The notes beneath the pieces are model-generated. The model was not told the origin of the DNA, did not search any database, and saw only the letters and a list, made by a program, of their open reading frames with translations. A stretch of DNA of 64,000 bases. It comes from Emcibacter sp. SYSU 3D8 (GTDB taxonomy: Bacteria > Pseudomonadota > Alphaproteobacteria > SMXS01). The DNA lies in contig NZ_JBBYXK010000001.1 of NCBI RefSeq assembly GCF_039655875.1, positions 62,001 through 126,000 on the forward strand, in the 5' to 3' direction. The number at the start of each line of letters is the position of its first letter. The stretch's first letter is position 1. A program made the translations under genes and the position numbers. Below, piece after piece: positions 28,239 to 59,095 of the stretch.

Positions 28239-31200
28239 TCAGTCTGCGGTGAGACGGTTGACGCCATTGTTGCCGATGGCGGTCGCGCCGACCTCGTTGC
28301 CCCTGACCGAGAACGTGCTGTTGCTGCTGGGGCCGCTCACGGTCCCGCCGCCCAGCCCGATGCCAACCGTCACGCCCGAGACGTTGGCGCTCACGGTGGT
28401 TTCGCTGTTCGTCTGCAGGTTGAAGATCGACGCGCTCGGGTGTTCGAAGGTGCCCGTATTCAGCGCCAAACTGCTCACGGCGCTGTTGCCTGTCGATTGG
28501 GCGAGGACCTGGTTGCCATTGACGGTCACGGCGCTGTCGTTGACGCCGAGGGCGCCCGCCAGTCCGTCGACGCCGACCAGTGTGTCGCTCACGGACGAGG
28601 TGACTGTGGTGGATGCCACAGACTGCCAGTTCAGGACCGCGTAGTCCGAACCGGTGACGCCGATGCCCATCGCCGGATCGATGGCGCCGCCAGCGCCGCT
28701 GCTCTCTTGCAGGCTGGCGCCGGCGCCGGATTGCACGGCATTCAGGGCATTGTTGCCGGTCGAAACCGACGTCACCGCGTTGTTCGATGTCGAGATGCTG
28801 CTGCCGCTTGCGCCTGCGCTGAAGTAGGAACGGAGCTGGGCCGCCGCCACCGACGACCTGATCTCCGATCCGGCGACTATGGCCTGGCGGCTGCCGGCCT
28901 GGCCGGTGGCGTCGCTGGACGAGCCGGCGTCGAGGACGAGGACGTTGCGTGCAACGAATCCGGCGGCCTTTGCCTGAATGGCATTGTTCTCCACCGTCAC
29001 GGTATCGTTGTTGACCGGGGTCAGCGCATCGATACCGATATCGGTGACAAGATAGGTGCCCTGGTTATCCGCTCTGATATCCGTCTCACCCGACTGGACA
29101 TTCAACACCGAGAAGTCGGCATTCAAGGTCAGGGTGGTAGTGGTGAAAGCCGGGGCCGCCGCAGGTGTCCCGCCTACGATGGCGGCGTCTGCCAGGACAT
29201 TGAGCCGGTTGGAAACGCTGCCGCCTGTCGCCTGAGCGACGATCGCGTTGCCCTCGAGAGACACGGAGGCCGAGCGCGCGTCCGACATGTCAAAGACAGT
29301 GGCGGCAATCGTGTTGCCACCGATCGTGAGTGCGGTCGCGGCACTCCCCGATGTGACGATCTGTTGCGACACCACGCTGGCGCTGGGCGTGTCGCCTGCC
29401 GCGCCCACATTCGCCTTGGCGTCCAACGTCGCCGTATTGAAGGCTGTGTGAATGGTCGCGTCAGTCAGGACCAGGTTGTTGTCCACGGTTGCCGAGCCGC
29501 TGTCGAAACTATCGAGGACCACGGAAGTGCTGGTCGAGAACACTGTGGCGGTCAGCACGTCGTCCTGGTCGGACACAATCGCCTCGGCGCCCTGGACATT
29601 GACCACGCTGAGGTCGGCAGCAACGATTATATCCGACGAGCCGGCCGGGTCGATGACTACGCTGGGTGTGGTCAGTCCGGTGCCGCTGTACAGGTTGGTG
29701 CCCGTTGCCGTCGCGGAATTGGTGGCGCGGTTGGCCGAGACGATTGCCGCGATGGCATTGCCATCGGCTGCGAAGTGGCTGTCGGTGACGGACTGCGCGA
29801 GTTGCTCGCCTGCAGATGCCGAGATGTAGGCGAAGTACACATCCGAGGTCAGATTGGCGCCGTCATCCGTGGTTTGCTGCAGGCTGGCGACAAAGCCGGA
29901 CACGTGGTTCGTGCCGAAATCCAGCGTGGCGCCGTTGAACGCATCGTTGCCGCGAGCCTCGCCGACGATGGCGTTGAGGCTTGCCGATACTGATGTGTCG
30001 TCGATGATGGGCACGAATTTCGCGTCCGCGATCACTATCGGCAACTGCAAGCCCGAGGTCACGTCGACGCCATTGGCCTGATAGGACGCAATGCCAAAGG
30101 CGAGGTCGTTGGCCGCCAATTCCGTATTCGCGGCGACATCCAGAATTTCGACTGATGGTGTCGCGGACACGGCTTCCACGTAGGACGTGCCGGATACATC
30201 AAGGAGATTGGTGGCATTGTTGACGCGACCCAGGGCGCGAATGCTGTTGCTGTCGGCCGACACGTCGCTCCCCGAAACCTGCGTATCGACACCTGCGACG
30301 CTCGCCTGAATCCTATCGAAATCGAGACTTGCGACCAGTCCGATTCCGACCCCGGCGTTGGCGCGTTGGTGGTTGGCGATGACGCCCAGCGGCCCGTTGG
30401 CCGCGCTCGCGGAACCTGCCTCGGACAGGTCGAATGTGGCAACGCTGAGGGTGAGGCTATTGGCCGCGTCATTGCCAAGCACCAGTACGGAAATGGTGTT
30501 CCTGTCGGCTTCGACGACGCTGCCGGCTAGCGAGCCGCCCTCGTTGTCGACGGTGCTGGAGACCGACACATTGTTCGCGGCGCCTATGACGCCGGCCGCG
30601 TTCAGGTCGCCGAATTCCTGGCTGTTCAGCAAACCGGTTTCCGCGCGCATCAGCGTGTTCCCGGCAGTGAAGCCGGCGAGGGACACGGAGCCCATCTCGA
30701 CGAGGTTGACATCGCCGCCGGTCACGACGTCGACGACGTTCTGGCTGTTGGCCTGGACCATCAGATGGTTGGTTGCGGTGTTGATCCGCCCCGAACTCTG
30801 CAGCAGGTTGTCATTCGCCTGCGCGTCAATGTTGGCAATGGTCGTCGCGCCAGCCGATGCCAGAAGCTCAATCGAGGCGGCGGTCAGGGTGGCGTCCAGT
30901 CCGCCCGAGAACGAGCCTGCGCCGCCATCCTCGTCCGAGAATGTCTGGGTGTTCGCCAGGGTCGATGTGGCATCGAGCGTGATTGCGTCGACTCCCAGGC
31001 TGTTGCCGGCCTGGTTGCCGGCGCTCGCTGCCGTGATGCTGTTGAAGCTGGCGCTGATATCGGTGTTGGTCAGCGTGGACAGGGGATCCGTGCTGCCGAC
31101 CTGAACACTGATCTTACCCTGGACATAAGCCGAAAACGACACAGGGTCGGCGTCGAAGCCGATGTTCTCGACGCTCTGGTCGTTGACCAGGACGAAGCCG

Positions 31201-33566
31201 CCCTGGACGACGGTGTCGGGCAGGCCATCAGGTGTGGCGTTGGGGATCACGGCATCGGCCAGCGACCGATAAACAGTCGCGACCGGCGTGCTCAACTGGT
31301 CGGTAGGGCTTGGGACGCCGTCGCTGACGGCGACCGCCGTGATGCTGATCATGTTGGACTTGGCGTCGACCAGGTTGCCAATGACACTGGCGGCCACGCG
31401 GTTGCCGTCGGCGCTGATGTCCGCATTGTCTATCGTCCGCGCCGTCGCGTTGACGGAAACAAGTCCACCGCCCAGCGGATCGTCGCTGTCGAGGACGGAT
31501 GACGTCATGTTGAGATGGTCCGAGGCTATGGTGTCGGACCCTTCCGCAACCTGCAGGTTGATGACGCCGACCGTTCCGCTGAAACTCGACGCCTTGCCGT
31601 CGTCCGAGACAGTGAAGCTGTTCAGGGTCACCCGGTTGGCGACCGATTGGGCGCTGATGCTGTTGTCCGATGCGCTGATCGTGGAATCCTCGATGGTCGA
31701 CCCGGCCGCGCCCTGGACATTGGCTGCCTCGACCGCGATGGCTCCGATGGTATTCGAGGTGTATTCGGATTCACGTGCGAACTGGCCGCTGACGATGCCG
31801 TAATCGGCTGCAACCCGGGATTCCATGGTCGCATGCGTGCTTTGTACGAAGTTGAACTGCGGGTTCACGGCGGCACCGGTCATGGTGCTGCCGTCCAGAG
31901 TGATGCGATTGGCCGCGATGTTGCCCGAGGCATCGGCAAACAGGCTGTTTTCATCCGCGCTGACATGGCTGCCGACAATGTCGCCCGTGATCGTGCCCAG
32001 GGTCGCGGCGCTGACCACAATATCGCCGTTCGTCGTGGCCGACGAACTGCTGCCGTCAGTCTGCAATTGTGCGTTGCCCAGCGACACCAGGCTGTCGAGT
32101 GTCGTGGCGCCAGCGACGGCGATGGTGTTGACCACATTGTTCCCGGTGGCGCTTGCGCCGATGCTGTTGCCGGTGGCCTCGACCTTTGACGTCAGCAGGC
32201 TTTCCACCAGCACATTCATGTCGCCGTCGTCGGTGTCGCCCGCCAGGTCGCCAACCTCTGCGTTGATCTCAAGCTGGCCGTACTGGTGATTGCCGATGAA
32301 CAAGTCGCCGATCACATTGGTATTGCCGTCCGAACCGCTGCCGGCGATGAGCACTGTCGATGAGCGGGTCAGGCTGATGGCGCCGGTCGGGAACGTGCCG
32401 TTCTGGCTGATTCCGTCGCCCAGCCGCACAAGATTGCTGGCGGTATTGCCGGTGCCGGCAGCGGCAATCCGGTTGCCCGAGAAATCTATGGTGCTGCCGC
32501 TCATATTGCCGATCGGTGTCCCGGCGCTCAGGCCGGCTTCGATATCCGACTCGCTGACCTGGGCCAGGTAGGTACGGCCCGCGATCGTGTTGCGCTGTGC
32601 ACTGGCGACACCGGCCGAACCGTTGAACATCAGGGCGCTCGCATGACCAGGGTCGAGCGCGTCGTCGAGGTTCACCTGATTGACGGCGCTGTTGCCGGTA
32701 ATGGTCGCCTCGATGGTGTTGCCGGTGACGTTCAGCCCGGTGTTCTCGATCGTGCTCGTGGTGTCGATCACGACCGCCAGCGAACCGATGCGCGTGTCGT
32801 CGATCGTACTCGACGAGTTCGCCAGGCTGTTTTCCTGTACCGAAGCGACCAGCGCCGTCGCACTGGCGCCGATGGCATTGCCGTTTGCGGCATTGCCCAG
32901 GGTCGGGCCGCCGGAGATTGCGGTGAAGCCGCCTTCGGTACTGCTGAGCAGCGGGTTGATGTCACCGCTGACGGTGTTGATGGCTTCGTTGCCGATCGCC
33001 TGGGCAAGAATAGTGTTGCCGGTAAGGCCCTGGGTGCTGCCGGCGAACAAATCCGACGAGGAGATGCGAATTTCCGAAGTTGTGATCGAGGACTTGAGCG
33101 ATGCGCCGTTGTCGCTGCTTTGCAACGAGGCGAGAGTCGCCGCCGAGGTGGCCCCGGAACCGGTCGCCGTCCACATCTCGATGCTGTTCCATGTCTGCGG
33201 ATTCAGATGCAGGGGATCCAGGTAAGTGGGCGAAACGTCGTCGTACGTCACCGCCGTGTTCAGCACTGACAGCGTCGAAATCGAATTGTCGTCGACCAGA
33301 ATGGCCACGACGCCGTCATAGTCTTGGGTCCCGGTCGTGGGAATGCCGACCAGGGTGCCGGAAACGGTAGCAACCGGATCAACATTGTTGTTGTTCTGGT
33401 TGTTGTTGATCGGCACGGATGTCGAACCGGCGGCGATCGTGACCGTCTCGGCGCTCCAGTCGACGATGGCATTGTAGAGCGAATCCGCCTGCGCCGTGCC
33501 GGCGACGTTCAAGGCCGTGGCAAGCGCAATGATGCTGACCGAAGCCAGTTTTTGGCCCATGTGCAT
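28239..33566 (-). CDS. Giant secreted repeat protein of unknown function, probable surface protein
   Basis: The protein has 1,775 residues from the ATG at 33566, which has GAGGGGG 6 bases upstream (an in-frame TTG lies at 33581). A Sec signal peptide runs MGQKLASVSIIALATALNVA up to about residue 28 (GTAQA, then DSLYN). The mature chain has no cysteine, only about nine lysines, and many Asn, Ser, Thr, Asp and Gly. It is made of about 19 degenerate modules near 87 residues long, each with a Q element and an N element, probably a beta-solenoid. No autotransporter barrel, sortase signal, SLH domain or calcium nonapeptide was seen, so how it is anchored or exported across the outer membrane is unknown. 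It stands alone between a terminator and a long spacer. Confidence 0.85.
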   Translation of the reverse strand: MHMGQKLASVSIIALATALNVAGTAQADSLYNAIVDWSAETVTIAAGSTSVPINNNQNNNNVDPVATVSGTLVGIPTTGTQDYDGVVAILVDDNSISTLSVLNTAVTYDDVSPTYLDPLHLNPQTWNSIEMWTATGSGATSAATLASLQSSDNGASLKSSITTSEIRISSSDLFAGSTQGLTGNTILAQAIGNEAINTVSGDINPLLSSTEGGFTAISGGPTLGNAANGNAIGASATALVASVQENSLANSSSTIDDTRIGSLAVVIDTTSTIENTGLNVTGNTIEATITGNSAVNQVNLDDALDPGHASALMFNGSAGVASAQRNTIAGRTYLAQVSESDIEAGLSAGTPIGNMSGSTIDFSGNRIAAAGTGNTASNLVRLGDGISQNGTFPTGAISLTRSSTVLIAGSGSDGNTNVIGDLFIGNHQYGQLEINAEVGDLAGDTDDGDMNVLVESLLTSKVEATGNSIGASATGNNVVNTIAVAGATTLDSLVSLGNAQLQTDGSSSSATTNGDIVVSAATLGTITGDIVGSHVSADENSLFADASGNIAANRITLDGSTMTGAAVNPQFNFVQSTHATMESRVAADYGIVSGQFARESEYTSNTIGAIAVEAANVQGAAGSTIEDSTISASDNSISAQSVANRVTLNSFTVSDDGKASSFSGTVGVINLQVAEGSDTIASDHLNMTSSVLDSDDPLGGGLVSVNATARTIDNADISADGNRVAASVIGNLVDAKSNMISITAVAVSDGVPSPTDQLSTPVATVYRSLADAVIPNATPDGLPDTVVQGGFVLVNDQSVENIGFDADPVSFSAYVQGKISVQVGSTDPLSTLTNTDISASFNSITAASAGNQAGNSLGVDAITLDATSTLANTQTFSDEDGGAGSFSGGLDATLTAASIELLASAGATTIANIDAQANDNLLQSSGRINTATNHLMVQANSQNVVDVVTGGDVNLVEMGSVSLAGFTAGNTLMRAETGLLNSQEFGDLNAAGVIGAANNVSVSSTVDNEGGSLAGSVVEADRNTISVLVLGNDAANSLTLSVATFDLSEAGSASAANGPLGVIANHQRANAGVGIGLVASLDFDRIQASVAGVDTQVSGSDVSADSNSIRALGRVNNATNLLDVSGTSYVEAVSATPSVEILDVAANTELAANDLAFGIASYQANGVDVTSGLQLPIVIADAKFVPIIDDTSVSASLNAIVGEARGNDAFNGATLDFGTNHVSGFVASLQQTTDDGANLTSDVYFAYISASAGEQLAQSVTDSHFAADGNAIAAIVSANRATNSATATGTNLYSGTGLTTPSVVIDPAGSSDIIVAADLSVVNVQGAEAIVSDQDDVLTATVFSTSTSVVLDSFDSGSATVDNNLVLTDATIHTAFNTATLDAKANVGAAGDTPSASVVSQQIVTSGSAATALTIGGNTIAATVFDMSDARSASVSLEGNAIVAQATGGSVSNRLNVLADAAIVGGTPAAAPAFTTTTLTLNADFSVLNVQSGETDIRADNQGTYLVTDIGIDALTPVNNDTVTVENNAIQAKAAGFVARNVLVLDAGSSSDATGQAGSRQAIVAGSEIRSSVAAAQLRSYFSAGASGSSISTSNNAVTSVSTGNNALNAVQSGAGASLQESSGAGGAIDPAMGIGVTGSDYAVLNWQSVASTTVTSSVSDTLVGVDGLAGALGVNDSAVTVNGNQVLAQSTGNSAVSSLALNTGTFEHPSASIFNLQTNSETTVSANVSGVTVGIGLGGGTVSGPSSNSTFSVRGNEVGATAIGNNGVNRLTAD
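28242..33122 (-). repeat. Alternating two-element protein repeats in the giant gene
   Basis: N elements follow the pattern N-x-I-x-A-x-x-x-G-N-x-x-x-N-x-L, at N184, 283, 365, 467, 540, 635, 722, 842, 920, 1023, 1107, 1198, 1270, 1440, 1528, 1596, 1685 and 1757. Between them come Q elements of the pattern V/I-x-N/S-x-Q, at about Q149, 244, 324, 428, 502, 575, 672, 797, 874, 983, 1067, 1163, 1230, 1325, 1401, 1491, 1577, 1648 and 1718. A decayed N element lies near 1377. The strict alternation shows a duplicated module. DNA-level repeats are too diverged to see by eye. Confidence 0.85.
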
Positions 33567-33632
33567 AGGTAGCCCCCTCAAAAAAATACATGCTCAGATC
33601 CCGGTGCGTTGGCCCGACCGGGGAAGCTGCGC

Positions 33633-59018: not shown

Positions 59019-59095
59019 CGGAGTGTAGCGCAGCCTGGTAGCGCATCACACTGGGGGTGTGAGGGTCGTCGGTTCAAATCCGGCCACTCCGACCA
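59019..59095 (+). tRNA. tRNA-Pro (GGG)
   Basis: The 77-base gene folds as a cloverleaf: acceptor CGGAGTG pairs with CACTCCG (59085-59091), the D arm contains AGCGCAGCCTGGTAGCGC, the anticodon stem is TCACA/TGTGA with loop CTGGGGG, and the T arm is GTCGG-TTCAAAT-CCGGC. The anticodon GGG reads proline CCC and CCU. The CCA end is encoded (59093-59095). Confidence 0.97.

Follow-up and report, generated by a model that had tools for sequence, protein, structure and literature searches.

HfaB/CsgG-type export is known for small subunits. HfaA and HfaD both depend on HfaB for reaching the cell surface, and the holdfast component that anchors the polysaccharide was described in 2019 as a question still open (PMC6707917). 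Curlin, for its part, is described as a solenoid with inward-facing Asn, hydrophobic and Gln ladders, built from repeats of 23 ± 5 residues that form two sheets (PMC10192328).

Here we analysed a gene for a giant protein in the window, by which we mean the whole 64,000-nucleotide stretch of DNA under analysis. Like curlin (CsgA), the giant protein is predicted to be an N/Q-ladder solenoid and its family has a CsgG-family exporter gene, which lies near sister copies and not near the window copy, although the curlin repeat has ~23 residues and the giant module ~87. Like HfaD, it alternates a conserved Q with a later conserved N, is enriched in an A-x-A-x-G-N-type element, has an HfaB-type lipoprotein as putative partner and comes from Alphaproteobacteria, although HfaD has ~8 modules with a ~47-residue period (419 aa in locus L068) and the giant protein 20 modules with a period of ~87. 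We put at roughly 0.5 the probability that it is a wide-coil, curli- and HfaD-like surface solenoid that is exported by an HfaB-type pore and acts as an adhesive or anchoring rod.

Gene and module organisation

An earlier note on this DNA had proposed a giant 1,775-residue open reading frame at 28239-33566, and this was upheld on the minus strand, with its ATG at 33566. The features of the locus are listed below; modules are those of the 25-row alignment, with residue ranges and the conserved Q and first N in brackets.

28239..33566, minus strand: gene, including the stop codon, for the giant, putatively secreted 20-module protein (ATG 33566; 1,775 aa)
33573..33579, minus strand: Shine-Dalgarno-like GAGGGGG, read from the sequence, 6 nt upstream of ATG 33566
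33486..33566, minus strand: signal-peptide-like N-terminus, residues 1-27, likewise read from the sequence; relatives start similarly
33159..33434, minus strand: module 1, degenerate (45-136; Q57, N94)
32874..33158, minus strand: module 2 (137-231; Q149, N184)
32634..32873, minus strand: module 3 (232-311; Q244, N283)
32322..32633, minus strand: module 4 (312-415; Q324, N365)
32106..32321, minus strand: module 5 (416-487; Q428, N467)
31821..32105, minus strand: module 6 (488-582; Q500, N540)
31590..31820, minus strand: module 7 (583-659; Q595, N635)
31215..31589, minus strand: module 8, longest (660-784; Q672, N722)
30984..31214, minus strand: module 9 (785-861; Q797, N842)
30657..30983, minus strand: module 10 (862-970; Q874, N920)
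30405..30656, minus strand: module 11 (971-1054; Q983, N1023)
30117..30404, minus strand: module 12 (1055-1150; Q1067, N1107)
29916..30116, minus strand: module 13 (1151-1217; Q1163, N1198)
29631..29915, minus strand: module 14 (1218-1312; Q1230, N1270)
29400..29630, minus strand: module 15 (1313-1389; Q1325, N1364)
29133..29399, minus strand: module 16 (1390-1478; Q1402, N1440)
28923..29132, minus strand: module 17 (1479-1548; Q1491, N1528)
28662..28922, minus strand: module 18 (1549-1635; Q1561, N1596)
28452..28661, minus strand: module 19 (1636-1705; Q1648, N1685)
28242..28451, minus strand: module 20, chain end (1706-1775; Q1718, N1757)
59019-59092: tRNA gene, the sole Rfam match at gathering score in the window

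A mechanical listing of open reading frames carries the minus-strand frame further 5', to a TTG at 33581, and also gives long frames on the opposite strand across the gene; the conserved frame is that of the minus strand. The promoter and terminator scan did no better than shuffles. The proposal that the protein is secreted is supported by its signal-peptide-like start, for which we take the likely cut to be after AQA. The protein has a mass of 175.9 kDa and a pI of 4.05, with 41 K+R and 166 D+E, and 22 of the 25 family members as extracted, among them the window protein, lack cysteine.

In the window protein, we counted 9 matches to the strict N pattern compared with 0.013 expected (1000 shuffles, maximum 1) and 15 to the strict Q pattern compared with 1.98 expected from shuffling (maximum 8). 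Its Q-Q spacing averages 87.4 residues (67-125) and its N-N spacing 87.5, with 35-50 residues from Q to N, which agrees with the mean period near 87 given earlier, and the strict alternation of Q and N elements claimed with it holds in the 25-row alignment of near-full-length proteins (five from genome G000, five from G003, 11 from G006 and two each from G002 and G007). About 19 modules had been counted from the letters; the repetition stands, while the count becomes 20, since a degenerate first module (Q57/N94) aligns. A module profile, derived from the same 25 proteins on which it was run, assigned 20 or 21 domains to 24 of them and 18 to the other, a protein truncated where its contig ends.

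Compared with one another, modules 2-20 of the window protein average 30% identity across 32 core positions. In 438 of 478 comparisons (8 of 20 for G007b, the most divergent relative), the closest match to a given module of the window protein was the module with the same number in the relative; the 20-module order is therefore ancient and fixed, and did not arise by recent repeat expansion. Since the module count is fixed at 20, a rod of defined length and an open-ended fibre are equally likely, and the constant 20 modules across two genera make a natural set for relating coil length and ladder residues to solenoid stability.

Conserved positions and predicted fold

The position profile covered modules 2-20 of the 25 proteins, numbered from the first N or from Q. 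Both Q and the first N are 99% conserved (n=473 each), and the majority residue averages 96% in the ladder columns of the 25-row alignment (Q, N and N+9) compared with 49% in the remaining columns. Relative to the first N, V/I/L/M/F is found at -5 (86%), +2 (89%) and +15 (84%), A at +4 (69%), +6 (59%) and +11 (62%), G at +8 (60%) and further N at +9 (79%) and +13 (73%); relative to Q, V/I/L/M/F is found at -4 (92%) and N or S at -2 (93%). Charged residues make up a fraction of 0.00 at N-5, N, N+2, N+4, N+6, N+11, N+15, Q-4, Q-2 and Q, and of 0.01-0.04 at N+8, N+9 and N+13, with charge-free positions alternating with polar ones. Most members have H, G and F instead of the second N in modules 15, 16 and 17, respectively.

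Two AlphaFold2 (AF2) runs, with seven sequence rows each, gave a mean pLDDT of 74 and a pTM of 0.78 for residues 860-1775 and values of 71 and 0.79 for residues 1-930, where much of residues 1-141 fell below a pLDDT of 50. Both models are all-beta except for the signal-peptide helix and a handful of other short ones, and they assign the same secondary structure to 63 of the 71 overlap residues. Strands recur over Q-6 to Q (modules 3-20) and over N+1 to N+7 (modules 2-20), and the chain turns at N. For perfect repeats, AF2 is described as over-predicting beta-solenoids, and its solenoid artefacts as having stacked charges (PMC11795689), from which the charge-free, predicted inward positions of the giant family differ. 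Taken together, the models and the position profile agree with the beta-solenoid with Asn and Gln ladders suggested in the earlier note, and an all-beta solenoid is well supported as the predicted fold.

Foldseek searches of the PDB with both halves returned nothing at E<=0.001 (best E-value 0.0067), with TM-scores of 0.03-0.12 among the matches listed. VIA-align re-examines Foldseek's own rows, which are beta-helices in general and leave room for families missing from them. Its best match for residues 860-1775 was a beta-helix lyase (Z 13.9, 255 residues, rmsd 4.2) and for residues 1-930 the EtpA secretion domain (Z 14.1, 270 residues, rmsd 4.4), on a scale where repeats can reach a Z of up to about 13 through a common arrangement alone. 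The aligned residues stretch over nearly the whole model, as expected if there is one rung per module; from these alignments and the ladders, each ~87-residue module most likely forms one coil in the predicted structure. If so, Asn/Gln-ladder solenoids are possible with coils nearly four times the 23 residues described for curlin (PMC10192328).

The top structural matches include RbmB and PL6 lyases, raising the question of whether the giant protein acts on polysaccharides as an enzyme of the beta-helix lyase type. However, many unrelated beta-helices score a similar Z alongside them, conservation is highest at residues found in every module and not at one site, and searching the 25 members against Pfam at E 0.01 gave no lyase and a single stray SecDF head match in one member (E 0.0022), making a lyase very improbable. 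An ordinary autotransporter, two-partner-secretion or RTX adhesin would likewise be large, secreted, repetitive and predicted to form a beta-helix, and the EtpA secretion domain, which belongs to a two-partner system and is the top row for residues 1-930, is tied with other beta-helices. RTX proteins carry nonapeptides of the pattern GGxGxDxux. This nonapeptide occurs 0 times in all 25 members, which sets aside RTX/type I and bears out the earlier statement that the protein is unlike RTX, and the window protein matched nothing in Pfam up to E 10 while its family matched only the stray SecDF model there, so that we give adhesins of these classes very little credence.

The view that the repeat belongs to no nameable family was borne out across databases. 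The window protein had no match in NCBIfam up to E 10 and no usable match in PHROGs; the 25 members had a single stray NCBIfam match, to an AmpC model, in one member (E 0.0017); and PDB sequences, searched by single sequence and by profile, gave no convincing match. Plasmids, phages and viral contigs yielded nothing usable, and among open-access papers no title or abstract opening was found that names the family. The Knotted Solenoid family (2026), about half from Caulobacteraceae and with pentapeptide-repeat proteins given as its closest unknotted relatives (PMC13123833), was set aside from its description alone.

Comparison with HfaD and curlin

Our HfaD set comprised 29 of 30 loci (L062 and L068-L096, with L079 left out by the ORF filter). 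Columns conserved at >=90% (L068 numbering) included Q46, N74, Q91, N122, Q139, N172, Q189, N219, N267, Q284, N313, Q330, N359, Q379 and N408; between N219 and N267, the expected Q stays below 90%, and some further N, G and A and two C columns are conserved too. This Q/N parallel suggests a common design behind HfaD. Homology of the giant protein to HfaD (NF037936) was not supported by profile comparison, with an hhalign probability of 0.6% (E 0.1) and scores against the HfaD HMM no better than those of reversed or shuffled controls, and no HfaD match was found in G000, G003 or G004. HfaD also differs in mostly giving one match per genome, whereas the giant family is multi-copy.

Curlin signatures were rejected: QX10Q averages 1.36 per protein compared with 1.89 in shuffled sequences, N-x-psi-x-psi-x-Q is at chance level, and there is no Curlin Pfam match. 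By analogy, then, the giant protein would work like HfaD and curli and, by the tests made, is a member of neither.

HfaB/CsgG-like lipoprotein genes also lie near genes for secreted proteins of about 350-380 aa in G024 (L140, L141, L142) and G003 (L059:7984-9977). These have few modules, and by eye they resemble the giant protein in their Q elements and ATAVANN / ATAVGNN repeats. Six such proteins were read in G024; the scanned ones belong to no convincing Pfam or NCBIfam family.

Genomic context and candidate export route

The window copy has an aldehyde-dehydrogenase-family gene on one side, an acyl-CoA dehydrogenase gene on the other and no HfaB/CsgG neighbour, in contrast with sister copies in G000 (contig C2), G003 (C2) and G007 (C12), to which an hfaB-like gene is linked. 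In these three genomes, which represent two genera, four genes run uninterrupted on the same strand: X, a gene for an HfaB/CsgG lipoprotein with an OmpA domain, Y and the giant gene. This order is found in 3 of 8 genomes. In G000 and G003, the products of the first three are ~230, ~450 and ~400 aa, with successive intergenic gaps of 35, 43 and 203 nt (G000) and 45, 37 and 214 nt (G003); Y of G007 is a weak match (44.3 bits). In G001, G002 and G006, X, the HfaB gene and Y are followed by a phosphofructokinase-like gene (as read), and the contig also carries a giant gene at a distance of 10-12 kb. G004 has, of the three, only Y (with an internal stop), on the same contig as the giant gene, while G005 has X and part of the HfaB/OmpA gene together on one contig.

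X and Y are each found in 7 of 60 genomes, and strong matches to the HfaB/OmpA protein (>300 bits) in 7 of 31, although weaker matches to either half are widespread. At least one of the three occurs in all 8 genomes having long family members; in G008 and G009, X and Y were not found and HfaB/OmpA matches were limited to the OmpA half. Thus, the X, HfaB/OmpA and Y genes track the giant family.

The G000 lipoprotein scores 229.7 bits (E 3.3e-68) against the NCBIfam HfaB model, below the equivalog cut-off of 300 bits, and 57.7 and 74.3 bits against Pfam CsgG and OmpA, both above cut-off; judged by these scores, it is homologous to HfaB, though under the equivalog cut-off. The HfaB model (264 positions) covers its residues 27-290, and the OmpA domain lies beyond. 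CsgG-family genes are common (14 of 21 genomes, G008 included). A second CsgG-type gene of G000, on contig C4, where no giant copy was found, scores weakly against CsgG in NCBIfam.

X and Y matched none of the family models searched, apart from one meaningless match at E 0.91. The motif [AS]x[AS]xGN occurs 5.76 times per giant protein compared with 0.99 when shuffled, 3.14 compared with 0.26 in HfaD and 2.67 compared with 0.22 in X; Y served as the control, and its slight rise (0.6 compared with 0.04) counts against our preferred reading. Gene Y at L046:908-2125 and L050:9026-10420 encodes ~400 aa with a signal-peptide-like start, and in G006 it bears a duplicated EWA(D/E)HVSPSFRRW-like segment.

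X, having an A-x-A-x-G-N-type motif, could be the sole substrate of the HfaB/CsgG protein, leaving the giant protein as a structural rod that is either periplasmic or located at the outer membrane's inner face. A signal for crossing the outer membrane is indeed undemonstrated in the giant protein. We nevertheless judge this arrangement distinctly improbable: in three genomes the operon runs from the exporter through Y to the giant gene at its end, and the large, variable number of paralogues would better fit a surface protein.

tamAB is a general envelope gene pair. Family members adjoin Omp85/POTRA-type and TamB-type genes in G000 and G002 and, judged by eye, a TamA/TamB-like pair in G003 and G006 (loci L018, L024, L027 and L032 across the four genomes); Pfam gave 189 bits for Omp85 (G000 gene) and 191 bits for TamB (G002 gene). 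A surface solenoid might thus cross or assemble at the outer membrane by another route, such as TamA/TamB (Omp85-type) machinery. We regard this as unlikely, since a single inherited neighbourhood of a general gene pair could explain the adjacency, the tree needs three changes to account for the tam-adjacent copies, which is not below the number for shuffled labels, and the protein ends at module 20 with no barrel domain found by Pfam.

In our preferred reading, of an HfaB-exported surface solenoid, the giant protein would be Sec-exported and would cross the outer membrane unfolded through the HfaB/CsgG-type lipoprotein pore, which would be held to peptidoglycan by its OmpA domain and whose gene lies with a sister copy at a different site in this genome. 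Because the window copy's own neighbours are metabolic, its HfaB-dependent export is inferred by analogy with the sister copies. It would fold as predicted into one long, unusually wide beta-solenoid, in which the Q, turn N, G-N and later N of each module would stack as ladders along the axis, and on the surface it may have an adhesive or matrix-anchoring role as a rod, like the holdfast anchor HfaD and curli. If this is true, the HfaB/CsgG pathway carries far larger cargo than its known small subunits. More tentatively, and with some doubt, we suggest a new family together with its exporter: fixed-length wide-coil solenoids of 20 rungs, each rung a single coil of ~87 residues, with at least three Asn/Gln ladders, an HfaB-OmpA fusion pore and up to 11 long copies per genome, perhaps joined end to end in a surface coat or fibre specific to the lineage.

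Distribution and copy history

The window protein is one of five copies in its own genome, and relatives in the 25-member alignment are 26-62% identical to it. In a whole-genome search with the single protein, 9 genomes among 60 relatives carried the giant family, and each belongs to the window's taxonomic family; a profile search, with at most two scored candidates per genome among the matches listed, gave 5 genomes from 385 sampled in the class, again all from that taxonomic family, and 0 of 380 others among the matches listed. Within this taxonomic family, 9 of 10 genomes have it and G009 has none. The prediction that relatives would be confined to related Alphaproteobacteria therefore held among the genomes searched, and the giant family is real and lineage-restricted, with a solenoid repeat that is strongly supported. 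A search of genome contigs with a second alignment (A2) gave four loci, and a single-protein scan of genome contigs gave no match.

G001, G004, G005 and G008 have partial copies only, several ending at contig ends; that of G008 is one C-terminal piece (~144 profile positions; L057, G008:C136:205-618) near a contig start.

In a tree of 24 members, the window copy groups with G006a and G003a, in a clade that also includes three tamAB-adjacent copies, while the operon-linked copies do not form one clade and G007a is a deep branch. Giant copies of G006 are adjacent to each other on L025, L028, L030 and L031, and on L025, L030 and L031 the neighbouring copies group as sisters in the tree, which suggests that the side-by-side copies arose by local duplication.
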